From positions 1,550,001 through 1,614,000 of the forward strand of contig NZ_SOCE01000002.1 of assembly GCF_004365175.1 (NCBI RefSeq): 64,000 nucleotides of DNA, given 5' to 3'. Under the pieces are notes generated by a model. The model was given only the letters and a program-made list of their open reading frames with translations, had not been told where the DNA came from and did no database searches. The translations under genes and the position numbers were made by a program. This document shows positions 1,157 through 56,904 of this stretch, piece after piece; position 1 is the first letter of the stretch, and every line of letters starts with the position of its first letter. Source of the DNA: Kribbella voronezhensis. Its GTDB lineage: Bacteria > Actinomycetota > Actinomycetes > Propionibacteriales > Kribbellaceae.

Positions 1157-1858
1157 TCAGGAAGTGGCCGGCCGCTGGTTGTCCCCCGGCTGCCCCTCGC
1201 CCGGCGTCGTGGGCCCGGCGGTGGGCGGAGTGCCGAGACCTGCGTTGGCCGGGTCGGACAGCACCTGCTTGCGGACGCTCAGCGTGCGCTGGACGACCGT
1301 GATCGTGCTGGCCACCGCGAGCACGCACAGAACGATCTCGAGCAGGATCGGCAGGTTGAGCACGTCCGAGAAGAACCCGATCACCAGCACCGACACCAGC
1401 CGGTCCGAGCGCTCGGCGAGTCCGCCGCTGGCGTGCAGCCCGAGGCTTTCGGCCTTGGCCCGCGCGTACGACGTGGTCGCGCCCATCACCAGCGCCCACA
1501 GGGTGACCGCGGCCATCCATCGCGAGTGGCCCGCGCTGCCGGCGTAGTACATGACGAGGCCGCCGAAGATCGCGCCGTCGCCGAGCCGGTCCAGTGTGGA
1601 GTCCAGGTACGACCCCCACTTCGACGAGGTGCCCGAGGTACGGGCCATGTAGCCGTCGATCAGGTCGGAGAACACGAAGCAGGTGATCACCACCACGCCC
1701 AGCCAGATGTGGCCGCGCGGGAAGAAGATCAGCGCGCCGGCGCAGACACCGATGGTGCCGACCAGCGTGACGGCGTCGGCGCTCACGCCGAGCTTCAGCA
1801 AGAGGTTGGCGATCGGCGAGATCACCTTGGTCCAGAACTGCCGGAATCTGTTAAGCAT
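1157..1858 (-). CDS. pgsA: CDP-alcohol phosphatidyltransferase (phosphatidylinositol phosphate synthase type)
   Basis: Integral membrane enzyme that joins a CDP-diacylglycerol phosphatidyl group to an inositol phosphate, supplying the lipid acceptor for PimA. The complete CDP-alcohol phosphotransferase signature is present: D65-x2-D68-G69-x2-A72-R73-x8-G82-x3-D86-x3-D90 (counted from the ATG at 1858). Several hydrophobic helices follow; the C-terminal 30 residues are Pro/Gly/Thr-rich and probably disordered. I chose ATG 1858 because MLNRFRQFWTKVISPIANLL matches the usual family start; an in-frame GTG at 1891 would add 11 residues, and neither has a strong Shine-Dalgarno site. Synteny with patA and pimA favours the phosphatidylinositol branch over PgsA for phosphatidylglycerol. 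Confidence 0.9.
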   Translation of the reverse strand: MLNRFRQFWTKVISPIANLLLKLGVSADAVTLVGTIGVCAGALIFFPRGHIWLGVVVITCFVFSDLIDGYMARTSGTSSKWGSYLDSTLDRLGDGAIFGGLVMYYAGSAGHSRWMAAVTLWALVMGATTSYARAKAESLGLHASGGLAERSDRLVSVLVIGFFSDVLNLPILLEIVLCVLAVASTITVVQRTLSVRKQVLSDPANAGLGTPPTAGPTTPGEGQPGDNQRPATS

Positions 1859-1942
1859 GGCGACGCGATCGTAGACCAGGCCGCTCACCACCGGATGACA
1901 GCGCCACCCCGAAGGCGCACCATTGGCTCACTGGGAGGCGAG

Positions 1943-2905
1943 ATGACCGTACGACGTTGCGCCGTGATCCGGCTCTTTCTCGCCCTAGTGCTGATCACCC
2001 TCACCGCCCCCGGCTGCTCCGTCGCGCGCCGGGCGAACGACGCCCGGCCGAACCCTGGCCGGCCGGCGGTGATCGTGCCGGCCGCCGTAGCCCCGCCGCA
2101 GCCGGAAGGCCTCGACGGAACCGCTGGAGCACCTGGTCCACAGGTCTGTACTGCGATCAGCACCGCCCTCGGCAAGGAACTCGGCGTCAAGGTCACTGCC
2201 AAGCGGTACTCCTGGAACGACGGCGGCCTGCCCGCGCTCGATCTGTGCACTCTCCTGCTCGACGACCGGCCCGTGCAGATCGGCGTCAGCGCGCTCCCGA
2301 AACAGCCCGATTCGCTCAGCCGGCTCTCGAGCGGGCTCACCCGCGGCGTCCCCGAGCTCGGCCCGGATGCCCGGCTCGGCACGGCCCGGCTGGCCTTCGC
2401 GGCCGGCGACCGAGTCGTCCGCCTCACGTCGCCGGGCGGGATCGACCGCAGTACGGCGACCGGGATCGATCGCGCCAAGGCGGTCGCGATCGGCCTTGCC
2501 GTGCGCGCCGCACTACCGGCCGTACTACGGAACGCTCGCCAGGTGGACGCCGCGTGCCAGGTGTCCACCTCGGCGGCGGAGCGATTCGTCGGCGCGCAGG
2601 TGCAGTTGCGGCGCGACTACCGGGTGAACGGGGCGCTCACCTGTATCTGGGGCACGTTCGACGCGACCGTGTCGATCGTGGAGTCGTTCGACCAGGAGAC
2701 GATCCCGGAGATCTCCACGACTCCCCCACCGTCGTTCGCCCCGATCGGCGAACCCGGCTACTACCTGCCTGACCAGGGCGAACTCGTGTTCCGCGAAGGC
2801 CGCCGAGTGGTCCGCGTGACCGCGCTGTCCGACCCGGCCAGGCCCGTCTCCCTCGACACCTTGGTAGGCATCGTCGGGCCCCTGCTCCCCCTCTTCATCC
2901 GGTGA
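1943..2905 (+). CDS. Predicted lipoprotein of unknown function
   Basis: A 320-residue protein with a basic N-terminus (MTVRRCAVIR), a hydrophobic core and a lipobox-like LTAPGC at residues 20-25, so probably an exported lipoprotein. The mature part has paired cysteines (VCTAIS, DLCTLL, AACQVS, LTCIWG) that could form disulfides, resembling DUF3558-type actinobacterial lipoproteins only in general form. ATG 1943 is preceded by a good GGGAGG site five bases away. The frame stays open far upstream, but that stretch is antisense to pgsA and is not coding. It lies inverted inside the thrS-to-pimA cluster and converges on the HIT gene with only 15 bases between stops. Confidence 0.75.
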   Translation: MTVRRCAVIRLFLALVLITLTAPGCSVARRANDARPNPGRPAVIVPAAVAPPQPEGLDGTAGAPGPQVCTAISTALGKELGVKVTAKRYSWNDGGLPALDLCTLLLDDRPVQIGVSALPKQPDSLSRLSSGLTRGVPELGPDARLGTARLAFAAGDRVVRLTSPGGIDRSTATGIDRAKAVAIGLAVRAALPAVLRNARQVDAACQVSTSAAERFVGAQVQLRRDYRVNGALTCIWGTFDATVSIVESFDQETIPEISTTPPPSFAPIGEPGYYLPDQGELVFREGRRVVRVTALSDPARPVSLDTLVGIVGPLLPLFIR

Positions 2906-2920
2906 GCGTGCGGCGCTGCT

Positions 2921-3532
2921 TCAGTCGGTCGGCCAGGACTTGGCGAGCAGTGCCCGGGTGTCGGAGAGAAGTTGAGGCAGCACCTTGGTCTGGGCGACGA
3001 CCGGCATGAAGTTGGTGTCGCCTCCCCAGCGCGGCACCACGTGCTGATGCAGGTGCGCCGCGATCCCCGCACCGGCGATCTCGCCCTGGTTCATCCCGAT
3101 GTTGAACCCATGCGCCGCCGAGACGGTGCGCACGGTCTGCATCGCCTGCTGCGTCAGCTTCGCGACATCGGCCACCTCGGCCTGCGTCAGCTCGGTGTAG
3201 TCCGCGACGTGCCGGTACGGAACCACCATCAGGTGACCCGGGTTGTACGGGTAGAGATTCAGCACGGCGTACGCCGACTCCGCGCGCGCCGCGATCAAGC
3301 CGTCCGCGTCGGACAGCCCCGGGATCCGGCAGAACGGGCACCCCGAGCCGGCGTCCGTACTCGTCGGCTTGTTCTCGCCCTCGATGTAGGCCATCCGATG
3401 CGGGGTCCACAACCGCATAAACGGATCGGGCACGCCGACCCCGTCCCGCCCGGCGAGCTCGTCCGGCTCGTACGGCGAGGTGCCTTGCTCGCCCGGCTGG
3501 TCGGCGCCGGGCAGGAGGGGGTTGTCGGTCAT
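2921..3532 (-). CDS. HIT-domain nucleotide hydrolase
   Basis: A 203-residue histidine-triad protein. The triad H160-L-H162-Q-H164-VV is complete, preceded by the family's [12 protein letters not shown] strand-loop and the CPFC pair at residues 65-68. HIT enzymes hydrolyse or transfer nucleotides such as dinucleoside polyphosphates; the position next to thrS is conserved in actinobacteria, where this protein is often annotated as an AP4A phosphorylase-like hydrolase. An N-terminal extension of about 60 residues is Pro/Glu/Gly-rich. The ATG overlaps the thrS stop in an ATGA junction, so it is coupled to thrS. Confidence 0.88.
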
Positions 3533-54560: not shown

Positions 54561-54576
54561 AGATATCGTGATATCT
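54561..54576. promoter_or_regulatory. Candidate RHH operator
   Basis: AGATATC-GT-GATATCT, a perfect 7-bp inverted repeat nine bases before the RHH start codon, in otherwise GC-rich surroundings. Confidence 0.65.
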
Positions 54577-54584
54577 TGCTAGCC

Positions 54585-54812
54585 ATGGCAAAGGAAGCGA
54601 CGAAGAACATCCTGCTGCGGTTGGACCCCGAGCTCGCCGAACGATTGCAGGCGGTGGCCGAGGTCGAGGGCCGCTCCGTCTCGGACGTCGCGCGCGAGGC
54701 GATCGCGTCCCTGGTCGAGCACCGACGCAACGACGCGCGATTCAGCCTGCTGCTGGAGGAGAATCTCACCCGGCACGAGCAGTCGCTCCGCCGGCTGCGC
54801 CAGGACGACTGA
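54585..54812 (+). CDS. Ribbon-helix-helix (CopG/Arc-like) protein, antitoxin-like
   Basis: A 75-residue RHH DNA-binding protein: TKNILLRLDPELAERLQAVA, EVEGRSVSDVAREAIASLVE, then a charged tail with a predicted helix (LLLEENLTRHEQSLRRLRQD). ATG 54585 gives the family start. The palindrome just upstream is a natural autoregulatory site. The stop shares one base with the next ATG (TGATG), an arrangement typical of antitoxin-toxin pairs; the downstream protein begins with a Doc-like domain. Confidence 0.85.
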   Translation: MAKEATKNILLRLDPELAERLQAVAEVEGRSVSDVAREAIASLVEHRRNDARFSLLLEENLTRHEQSLRRLRQDD

Positions 54813-55870
54813 TGCAGCACCTCGACCTGTACGACGTACTGGCGGTCGTCGCCCGGGTGATGCAGTGCGACCCGGATGCCGCGATCCGGCGTACGGACCT
54901 GGACGCGGTCGCGCAGGTGCTCTCGGAGGCGACCTCACCACTGTGCCAGGACGACCTCGCCGAGGCGGGCGGGGTGTTGTTGTCGGGACTGGTGAGCCGG
55001 CGGCCGTTCGCCGGTCCGAACCGGACGATCGCGGTCGCCGTCGTCCTGCAACTGGCCGGCCTCAACGACGCCGACCTCGAACTCGAACCGGTCGAGGAAC
55101 TCGATGCGCTCCTCGATCGCGTCAGCTCCGGCCAGGCGCCCATCGCCGAGGTCATCGCCGAGGTCATCGACGTGGTGCGGCACCGACTCCAGTGCCGGGA
55201 GCTGACGCTCTCGAGCCTCGGTTCCGAAGACCAGATCAATCCTGAGGAGAGCGATATGTTCGAGAAGTTCACCGAGCGGGCGCGGCGGGTGATGGTGCTG
55301 GCGCAGGAAGAGGCCAGGAACCTTCAGCACAACTACATCGGCACCGAACACGTCCTCCTCGCGATCCTCGAGGAAGGCGGTGGTACTGCGGCGAAAGTGC
55401 TGGCCAACCTCAACATCTCGACCGCCGCGGCCCGCGCGGTCGTGCTCGAGATCGTCGGTCGCGGCGAGAAGGCGCCGGCCGGCCACATCCCGTTCACGCC
55501 ACGCTCCAAGCGGGTGCTCGAGTACAGCCTGCGGGAAGCCGTGCAGCTCGGGCACCAGAACATCGGCACCGAGCACATCTTGCTGGGCATCGTCCAGGAC
55601 GGCGAAGGCGTCGCGGCGCAGACGCTGGTGAAACTCGGCGTCGACCTCTCGAAGGTGCGCCAACTGATCCGCCACCGGCAGCACTCCGAGGCGGCCGTCA
55701 CCGAGTTCCTTGCCGGCGACAGCGGATCCTTCACCCCGAAGATGCCCGCCCGCAAGCACCACCTGCTCAGCGAACTGGAAAGCCTGATCGACGAGAACGA
55801 CAACCTGTACGAACAGGTCCGCCGCCTCCGCGAGAAGCTGCGTCAGCACAACATCGACCCGGACGACTAG
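54812..55870 (+). CDS. Degenerate Doc-like domain fused to two ClpC N-terminal domains
   Basis: A 352-residue open frame. Residues 1 to about 130 follow the Doc toxin pattern (LDLYDVLAVVARVM, AVAQVLSEA, DLAEAGGVLLSGLVSRRPFA, AVVLQLAGLN, a SGQAPIAEVIAEVI tail). The catalytic HPFxDGNKR box reads RPFAGPNRT, so His, Asp and Lys are lost and it is probably inactive. Residues 149-290 are a tandem Clp_N repeat (FTERARRVMVLAQEEARNLQ, HNYIGTEHVLLAILEEGGG; then SKRVLEYSLREAVQLGHQNI and GTEHILLGIVQDGEG), followed by a coiled coil. No AAA+ domain follows. ATG 55256 (codon 149) has GAGGAG just upstream, so a separate 204-residue Clp_N protein could also be made. Confidence 0.8.
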   Translation: MQHLDLYDVLAVVARVMQCDPDAAIRRTDLDAVAQVLSEATSPLCQDDLAEAGGVLLSGLVSRRPFAGPNRTIAVAVVLQLAGLNDADLELEPVEELDALLDRVSSGQAPIAEVIAEVIDVVRHRLQCRELTLSSLGSEDQINPEESDMFEKFTERARRVMVLAQEEARNLQHNYIGTEHVLLAILEEGGGTAAKVLANLNISTAAARAVVLEIVGRGEKAPAGHIPFTPRSKRVLEYSLREAVQLGHQNIGTEHILLGIVQDGEGVAAQTLVKLGVDLSKVRQLIRHRQHSEAAVTEFLAGDSGSFTPKMPARKHHLLSELESLIDENDNLYEQVRRLREKLRQHNIDPDD

Positions 55871-55968: not shown

Positions 55969-56847
55969 TCAGGTCGCGGCGAGGCGGGCCTTCTCTTCGG
56001 CGACGTCGAAATCGGCGGCCGGCCACTGCGGGTCGAGGCCCTTCAACGTCTCCAGAAGCAGGGTGGTGACTGCCCAGTTGCGGTACCACTTGCGGTCGCT
56101 GGGGATCACGTACCACGGAGCATCGGGGGTGTTGCAGTTCTCGAGCGCCGCCTGGTACGCCTCGGCGTACGCGGGCCAGAGTTTGCGCTCGTCGACGTCA
56201 CCCGGGTTGTACTTCCAGTGCTTCGTCGGGTCATCCAGGCGCGCCAGGAGCCGCTCCTTCTGCTGCTCCGGCGAGATGTGCAGGAAGCACTTGACGATCG
56301 TGACCCCGGTGGCCGTCAGCTCGGCCTCGAACTCGTTGATCTCTTCGTACCGGCGGTTCCAGACCGGCGGCGCGACCAGGTTCCGTACCCGGGCGATCAG
56401 CACGTCCTCGTAGTGCGACCGGTCGAAGATCCCGACCATGCCGGGACCGGGCAGCGCCTGGCGGATCCGCCAGAGGAACCCGCGCCGCTTCTCGGCCGGC
56501 GTCGGCGCCTTGAACGAGGTGATCTTCAACCCCTGCGGGTCCATCAACCCCGCACCGTGGCGGATGACACCGCCCTTGCCGGAGGTGTCCATGCCCTGCA
56601 GTACGAGCAGGATCCGGCGCTCGCCACCCTTGCGCCCTTCGGCGAACAGGCGCTCCTGCCAGTCGGACACCTCCGCGCCCACCTCTTCGAGCGCGGCCTT
56701 GCCGTCGGCCTTGTCACCGGAGAACCCGGTGGTGGCGCGAGTGTCATAAGCAGTCAGGTCGACCGCACCAGGCGGGACCCGCAACACGTCCAGCAACTTC
56801 CCGGTCGGTACGTCGACTTCGTCGTGACCGCTCTTCTTCTTCGCCAT
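55969..56847 (-). CDS. Polyphosphate kinase 2 family protein
   Basis: A 292-residue PPK2-type kinase: Walker A LVLQGMDTSGKGGVIRHGAG, lid region FKAPTPAEKRRGFLWRIRQA, Walker B IFDRSHYEDVLIARV and the conserved DDPTKHWKYNPGDVDERKLW. It transfers phosphate between polyphosphate and nucleotides; length fits the single-domain class I/III enzymes (GDP or AMP/ADP substrates not decidable here). ATG 56847 is chosen with CAGGA upstream; longer starts add a low-quality 19-residue head. Confidence 0.92.
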   Translation of the reverse strand: MAKKKSGHDEVDVPTGKLLDVLRVPPGAVDLTAYDTRATTGFSGDKADGKAALEEVGAEVSDWQERLFAEGRKGGERRILLVLQGMDTSGKGGVIRHGAGLMDPQGLKITSFKAPTPAEKRRGFLWRIRQALPGPGMVGIFDRSHYEDVLIARVRNLVAPPVWNRRYEEINEFEAELTATGVTIVKCFLHISPEQQKERLLARLDDPTKHWKYNPGDVDERKLWPAYAEAYQAALENCNTPDAPWYVIPSDRKWYRNWAVTTLLLETLKGLDPQWPAADFDVAEEKARLAAT

Positions 56848-56904
56848 CTGTACATCCTGCCCCATCCCCACCGAAGAACCGACGAGGACAGGGCAGGACA
56901 TCAA

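Follow-up and report, generated by a model that had tools for sequence, protein, structure and literature searches.

What can become of a toxin-antitoxin (TA) pair when its toxin is joined to a domain of the Clp machinery? An operon of Kribbella voronezhensis raises this question. It lies in a stretch of 64,000 nucleotides (contig NZ_SOCE01000002.1 of assembly GCF_004365175.1, positions 1,550,001 to 1,614,000 of the forward strand), referred to below as the window, and all positions are counted within it unless another locus is named. A small RHH gene is followed by one long frame in which a Doc-like domain, here called Doc*, precedes a domain of the type found at the N-terminus of ClpC (ClpN). 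The identity of each part, its distribution and the products that the operon is predicted to make are considered in turn, followed by the function that these features suggest.

Anatomy of the locus

The preliminary description of this DNA had proposed an RHH gene with a perfect palindrome before its start, a one-base TGATG junction, and a single frame carrying a Doc-patterned domain with a ruined catalytic box and tandem Clp_N domains without an AAA+ module. Its outline is borne out at nearly every point. The RHH protein matches Pfam PF01402 (RHH_1) with 28.1 bits against a cut-off of 20.5, and the palindrome AGATATC-GT-GATATCT is found at 54561-54576 as the left part of a larger conserved block. 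The stop codon TGA of the RHH gene and the ATG of the fusion overlap by one base at 54810-54814. The second frame is open over its entire length, its Clp_N match falls into two stretches, and no AAA+ model is matched. Features and coordinates are collected in Table 1.

Table 1. Features of the RHH-Doc*-ClpN operon in window coordinates
Feature	Position	Strand	Basis
RHH (CopG-type) protein, 75 aa	54585..54812	+	Pfam RHH_1 above cut-off
Doc*-ClpN fusion frame, 352 aa	54812..55870	+	one open frame
Operator/promoter-like block GATATC-GT-GATATC-TT-GCTAGC	54562..54584	+	abuts RHH start
Doc* domain, residues 1-126	54812..55189	+	AlphaFold2, structural matches and box counts
Ruined Fic/Doc box RPFAGPNRT, residues 64-72	55001..55027	+	counts over 29 fusions
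Variable linker, residues 127-148, with internal ribosome-binding site	55190..55255	+	pLDDT
Internal Shine-Dalgarno GAGGAG, 6 bases before ATG 55256	55244..55249	+	predicted pairing
Predicted free ClpN protein, 204 aa, equal to the C-terminal part of the fusion	55256..55870	+	invariant Met149
ClpC N-domain, two Clp_N repeats, residues 149-290	55256..55681	+	Pfam E 4.4e-33
C-terminal helix, residues 312-345, probable coiled coil	55745..55846	+	model helix

Judging from the model, the C-terminal helix is probably a coiled coil for oligomerisation; its leucine-zipper match is weak and under the cut-off (HALZ E 0.0028), and it contains positions that are invariant in 15 orthologues. The full-length model of the fusion has a pTM of 0.48, so the relative placing of the domains is uncertain. 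The anatomy as described, comprising an RHH protein, a dead Doc domain, a ClpN domain and a coiled coil, can be put forward with high confidence.

A Doc-like domain with a ruined catalytic box

Curated family models recognise Doc* of the window protein weakly: no Pfam match is obtained, and DOC_P1 reaches 12.4 bits (E 0.13) against a cut-off of 38.65. Orthologues and structure were used for this reason. Six orthologues were tested, and each has DOC_P1 as its best match, at E-values between 2.6e-5 and 0.046 (the lowest two being 2.6e-5 and 1.9e-4) and with scores under the curated cut-off (best 24.4 bits against 38.65), and Pfam Fic reaches 14.9 bits in one orthologue against a cut-off of 24. 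Compared by sequence with solved structures, the Doc* profile matches a single Doc (E 0.016) and a transferase unrelated to it (E 0.11), and the RHH profile finds nothing convincing (best 0.043). A PADLOC search with the RHH and fusion proteins gives no match at E up to 0.01.

AlphaFold2 models Doc* with a pLDDT of 95.4. In the structural ranking (VIA), entries of P1 Doc occupy the top three places with Z-scores of 13.7 (rmsd 2.4, 114 aligned residues), 13.4 and 12.9, and the Fic proteins that come next have Z 9.6 or less; the best Foldseek match of the same model has an E-value of 1.7e-3. The model was built from 30 rows that include one canonical Doc, and a full-length model built without that row has the same helices. 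The 50 structural matches listed for the full model concern the ClpN part only, and Doc* was hence modelled by itself. The Doc assignment made at first sight thus stands through the orthologues and the predicted structure of residues 1-126, whereas the profile search of the window protein itself does not establish it.

A gapless alignment places the sequence RPFAGPNRT on HAFIDGNKR, the box of a canonical Doc. It is a ruined H-x-F-x-D-G-N-K-R box, in which the catalytic roles of the residues, among them the histidine and the metal-binding aspartate, are taken here from the Doc literature. Across the 29 fusions, the histidine position is occupied by R (26), Q (2) or K (1) and the aspartate position by G (22), A (3), R (2), C (1) or K (1), and both residues, which the box of an active Doc kinase toxin requires, are therefore lost in every fusion. 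The phenylalanine is kept in 29/29 and the asparagine in 28/29, the lysine position is R in 29/29, and the final arginine is lost in 25 and kept in four. In seven close pairs of sequences, the dN/dS of Doc* is 0.05-0.26; it is 0.56 and 0.48 in two more distant ones, for which ClpN gives 0.22 and 0.47. Because the box is destroyed, the Doc fold is confidently predicted and dN/dS is low, catalysis by Doc* should be gone and its fold retained under constraint.

Ancestry and distribution

A similar RHH gene beside an intact Doc is found in G300, a genome from another family of the phylum. Its standalone Doc bears the intact box HAFIDGNKR, scores above the cut-offs of both Pfam Fic and DOC_P1, and lies directly after, or overlaps, the RHH gene. 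The RHH protein of G300 is 49% identical to that of the window over 63 aa, and this stretch takes in the greater part of the C-terminal tail; between the G300 Doc and Doc*, identity is 34% over 110 residues. These similarities support the interpretation of the G300 genes as a pair of the ancestral type and of the window operon as TA-derived, in keeping with the ancestry first suspected. Two features of type II TA systems are also found here: the partner genes overlap, and a palindromic block lies upstream. The overlap is TGATG in 27/27 Kribbella loci, and 1 or 4 bases long in three loci of a second family. The operon therefore resembles P1 Phd-Doc and RHH-Doc pairs in its Doc fold, in the overlapping small DNA-binding partner upstream and in the retained RHH tail, but departs from Doc toxins in the box destroyed in 29/29 fusions, in the added ClpC N-domain and C-terminal helix, and in its stable chromosomal locus.

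A Doc* match is present in 27 of 38 Kribbella genomes, intact in 26 and broken in one (G012, locus L030), where the Doc*-ClpN frame is interrupted and the RHH gene and upstream block are intact; 12 of the 38 genomes are thus without an intact copy of the operon. The RHH gene occurs in the same 27 genomes, and the other 11 have neither; three weak RHH matches elsewhere fall in genomes that already have the RHH gene. A near-identical locus is found in K. monticola. An order-level search gave matches in at least 40 of 293 genomes, made up of the 27 Kribbella genomes, three of the second family and ten of another family. The gene order RHH-Doc*-ClpN, sought in other actinobacteria as the preliminary description had proposed, was found in 26 of the 38 Kribbella genomes and, in the same arrangement, in the three second-family genomes (G444, G447 and G452). 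The ten genomes of the other family have short Doc-like frames, and in the three of them that were read (L060 to L062) the frame is canonical or close to it.

The count of 29 fusions excludes L058 and L059 to L062. L030 enters the upstream-block counts (27 rows) but none of the fusion alignments, box counts or Shine-Dalgarno (SD) tests; alignments A2, A3 and A4 hold 15 of the 26 Kribbella sequences. L058, from G444, is a second Doc-like frame (2443-3159, reverse complement) with the dead box RPFPSDNRE and without ClpN.

At class level, a profile that included one canonical Doc matched at least 146 of 394 genomes. A canonical-type box was found in 18 of the 19 class-level loci read, with no match in L115, by a pattern that demanded a near-canonical box and biased this count towards canonical ones. 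The phylum search (396 genomes) returned the own genome and at least three canonical-type Docs, and for a tail profile among 296 phylum genomes the own genome was the only match listed. The phylum, order and class searches scored the first 10 to 15 candidates per genome, and misses are possible.

The operon is followed by ppk2 in 24 of 27 Kribbella loci, and ppk2 is also present in all 11 Kribbella genomes without the operon. In the window, the convergent ppk2-like neighbour (55969-56904, minus strand) is taken, by eye, to be polyphosphate kinase 2. In one of these 11, G028 (L127), a remnant of the ClpN C-terminal tail lies beside ppk2 (2443-2600, minus strand), which points to loss of the operon by deletion in place. 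Judged by its sequence context, the locus is chromosomal and stable.

The RHH gene and its upstream block

The RHH protein has a mean column identity of 88% (15 rows), and its C-terminal tail is conserved. It is probably an antitoxin-derived autorepressor, whose tail would be the likely Doc-binding part. Conservation extends into the DNA directly before the gene: an alignment of the 27 Kribbella loci has 18 columns of at least 1.27 bits among the 23 between -23 and -1, and between -70 and -24 no column exceeds 0.69 bits. The consensus of this block, GATAKC-GT-GATATC-TT-GATATC or close to it, touches the RHH start codon, and the sequence flanking it upstream varies among these loci. Three GATATC-like half sites with 8-base spacing make up the block of the window, which overlaps an extended -10 shape, TGATATCTT (54569-54577). 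The block is also present before the RHH gene in 3/3 second-family loci.

A 17-base pattern of the block, with up to one mismatch, occurs in 20 of 38 Kribbella genomes, once in each, and the site in every case precedes the RHH gene; the controls gave no match. A regulon sought with this pattern in the 38 genomes was not found, the RHH-gene site being the only one in each matching genome; the seven remaining operon-bearing genomes have more divergent sites that this pattern misses, and weaker sites elsewhere are possible. Control of the operon looks local. The block at 54562-54584 is a putative operator for the RHH protein, and the position of TGATATCTT suggests that the RHH transcript is leaderless.

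The ClpC-type domain and its ligand pocket

The ClpN model matches the N-domain of M. tuberculosis ClpC1 (3wdc) with Z 26.3 and an rmsd of 1.0, at 63% identity over 147 residues, and the shared fold begins at the first methionine. Within its own genome, ClpN of the window is 69% identical to ClpC1 and 36% identical to ClpC2. It differs from ClpC1 in being without AAA+ modules and fused to Doc*, and probably in being made alone as well.

Residues E179, E254 and F228 are invariant in the 29 fusions and K233 is kept in 28. The two glutamates presumably correspond to the phospho-arginine glutamates of ClpC from B. subtilis, as F228 and K233 do to F80 and K85. The F2 and H77 positions, which are assumed to be ligand-pocket residues, carry Tyr in 16/29 and His in 10/29, respectively. 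General ClpC-type binding is likely kept, and the ligand may be other than cyclomarin because the F2 and H77 positions are partly lost.

An internal start and a second product

The fusion and a separate 204-residue ClpN protein had first been treated as alternatives; the evidence favours both products from one gene. Met149 is invariant in 29/29 fusions and aligns to Met1 of M. tuberculosis ClpC1. Over the 29 fusions this internal methionine lies between residues 130 and 163, always in frame. The linker before it is modelled with low confidence (pLDDT below 50 at residues 131-147) and differs among the fusions in sequence and length, and in 29/29 it contains a purine-rich SD-like stretch. This is GAGGAG in Pro-Glu-Glu linkers and TGGAGGGG in Trp-Arg-Gly linkers, with AAGGAGG, GAGGAGG, GGAGGG or GGGGAAA in others.

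Pairing with the anti-SD sequence was scored in the 15 bases from -18 to -4 relative to the internal ATG, with an assumed anti-SD, since the genome copy searched yielded no 16S 3′ end. The predicted energies range from -8.6 to -12.7 kcal/mol in 29/29 fusions and average -11.4; the corresponding means are -3.7 for 10071 in-frame positions elsewhere and -3.8 for 108 further ATGs. Of the three starts, the internal one has the strongest SD in 28/29, the means being -2.1 for the RHH gene and -5.8 for the fusion. When 13 representatives of the linker types were resampled synonymously, the mean was -7.5, and 0/2000 resamplings reached the observed -11.2; with three other anti-SD strings the result was 0/1000 each. 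The sequences compared are related to one another. In the Trp-Arg linkers, 17/17 Arg codons are AGG, against 30/1019 Arg codons elsewhere in the genes. Taken individually, 17/29 linkers beat 95% of their own synonymous resamplings and 12/29 are not unusual at 5%; the linker of the window is not individually unusual, a fraction of 0.658 of its resamplings being equally strong.

Dissimilar linkers all keep the SD, in different codon phases, which argues against a codon constraint. The pattern of conservation indicates that the gene very probably yields both the fusion and, from the internal start, free ClpN. That the ATG at 55256 is used as a second start is considered likely, with good confidence.

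Comparison with ClpC2 and other small Clp proteins

Mycobacterial ClpC2 is among the closest known parallels to this operon. In PMC10030653 it is described as a helical dimer domain joined to a ClpC1-like domain, and as an autorepressor whose operator, CGTCAAC-n5-GTTGACG, lies at the start codon and is bound by ClpC2 itself. Cyclomarin lifts its binding to the promoter, and ClpC2 then acts as a drug sponge (PMC10030653). Among three natural products that bind ClpC1, cyclomarin alone induced ClpC2 in M. tuberculosis, according to PMC12913811.

The operon resembles ClpC2 (Rv2667) in encoding a small protein without AAA+ modules and with a ClpC1-like N-domain, and in having an operator-like block right at the start codon of a probably leaderless, presumably autoregulated transcript. 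It differs in its separate RHH protein, its GATATC block, its Doc domain and its internal start. The C-domain of ClpC2 (8ad9) matches the ClpN model of the window at Z 18.3, and the N-terminal dimer domain (8ada) does not figure among the 46 matches that the window protein gives by sequence (E up to 10). The ClpC2 operator is likewise absent before the RHH gene of the window, where the block is GATATC-based. Identity of the operon with ClpC2 was considered and rejected on the Doc fold of residues 1-126, the other operator, the separate repressor and the ClpN identity of 36%.

A true ClpC2 is encoded elsewhere in the same genome (L003:1465-2184, minus strand). Its N-domain (residues 18-97 of frame 1465-2220, minus strand) matches 8ada at E 7.5e-5, and two CGTCAAC-n5-GTTGACG sites lie directly before its ATG. 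The same N-domain matches RelI chain 9sdc slightly better, at E 3e-5.

Strong ClpC2 matches (over 200 bits) are present in 34 of 38 Kribbella genomes. They include 23 of the 27 operon-bearing genomes, so a decoy role of the operon could be redundant. All 11 operon-less genomes have a strong ClpC2 match, and the four genomes without one (G021, G022, G034 and G037) have the operon; across the 38 genomes, the association between operon and ClpC2 is not significant (Fisher p 0.30). The operon and ClpC2 seem to be one design built twice, by convergence.

ClpC3, compared here by its description, is similarly a small Clp protein that binds ClpC1 ligands, and the excerpt of PMC10864484 mentions no link of it to RHH or Doc proteins. 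ClpN repeats fused to vWA proteins are reported in PMC7159879. Searches of open-licence PubMed Central papers met no description of an RHH-Doc*-ClpN fusion. The start-abutting block, the conserved internal start and the presence of a separate true ClpC2 in the genome are new here.

Proposed function and alternatives

The preliminary description had suggested that a TA module was turned into a Clp adaptor or regulator. A regulator-type reading is retained here, and an adaptor is less likely than a sensor or decoy, since a free ClpC N-domain binds the partners of ClpC rather than docking on ClpC, and since mycobacterial ClpC2 works in that manner. Sequence, models and the analogy with ClpC2 together suggest, at somewhat short of an even chance, that the RHH-Doc pair became an autoregulated sensor or decoy for ligands of the ClpC1 N-domain.

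In such a system, the RHH tail would hold Doc* as in the ancestral pair, and the RHH protein would repress the operon with the fusion as co-repressor. Engagement of ClpN by a ClpC1-binding antibiotic, by an unfolded or arginine-phosphorylated protein, or by an adaptor would then ease repression, as would free ClpN joining the complex via the coiled coil. The derepressed operon would make mostly free ClpN, the predicted best-initiated product, which would compete with ClpC1 for the ligand and lead to a ClpC2-like outcome with different parts. The more specific proposal of a ligand-gated switch, in which the dead toxin is co-repressor, the fused ClpC domain senses ClpC-directed antibiotics or stress, and the sponge made from the internal start is the response, all independently of ClpC2, is speculative and rather doubtful.

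The same parts could instead serve proteolysis, an unlikely account in which Doc* holds the RHH protein and ClpN gathers adaptors or marked substrates, thereby controlling the degradation of RHH by ClpC1P, with the RHH level as output. Antitoxins are degraded by Clp proteases, and 29 fusions tie a putative RHH-binding domain to a docking domain of ClpC type, both of which speak for such a switch. Strongly initiated free ClpN would, however, oppose delivery. Moreover, the N-domain of a ClpC should rival ClpC1 for partners and not dock on it, in line with what PMC10030653 says of ClpC2.

Less probable still is that the operon has remained a TA pair, in which ClpN would be the toxic part, withholding substrates from ClpC1P, and the fusion would be neutralised by the RHH protein via Doc*. 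The gene order, overlap, upstream block and RHH tail are TA-like, and ClpC1 is a known antibiotic target (PMC10030653). Yet free ClpN, being without Doc*, would escape neutralisation; the position beside ppk2 in 24/27 Kribbella loci is unlike that of mobile TA systems; and one genome has lost most of the operon, with a tail remnant left.

It is also improbable that the fusion is the only product and the internal SD is left over from a once separate clpN gene or a by-product of codon constraint in the linker. Two genes may plausibly have fused, Glu, Gly and Arg would be expected to make the linker purine-rich, and the 12/29 linkers that are individually unremarkable fit this explanation; a relic, however, should have decayed over two families, and dissimilar linkers all keep the SD to a degree that none of the 2000 or 1000 resamplings match. 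The converse case, in which free ClpN alone matters and Doc* is a decaying leader, has in its favour the best predicted ribosome-binding site and the greater divergence of Doc* in the two distant pairs, but is made very improbable by the low dN/dS of Doc* in the seven close pairs (0.05-0.26), its intact and confident Doc fold, a frame that is open in 29 fusions and the RHH gene in the same genomes.

Should the sensor or decoy reading be true, a TA pair would have been domesticated into a sensor by loss of catalysis and gain of a protease docking domain. Such an operon would provide a second, independent way to protect ClpC1 besides ClpC2, and it would predict that compounds binding ClpC1, or phage proteins, exert a lasting pressure on soil actinobacteria. 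It would also make testable the idea that a pseudo-toxin and two isoforms of one gene set the output of an operon.

Clp_N relatives in viral contigs

A Clp_N relative was found in 62 viral contigs (IMG/VR, L143-L204), none of which carries the operon's RHH or Doc at E 1e-3; the contigs were scanned with Clp_N peptide patterns, so Doc* alone fell outside the scan. In 45/62 contigs, the relative sits in a closed frame of less than 420 aa, too short for AAA+ modules, and the C-terminal tails are very varied. Phages may carry free ClpC-domain decoys. Examples include L145:3001-3666 and L167:3016-3876, the latter with a tail that, by eye, presumably belongs to a MazG-type pyrophosphohydrolase.
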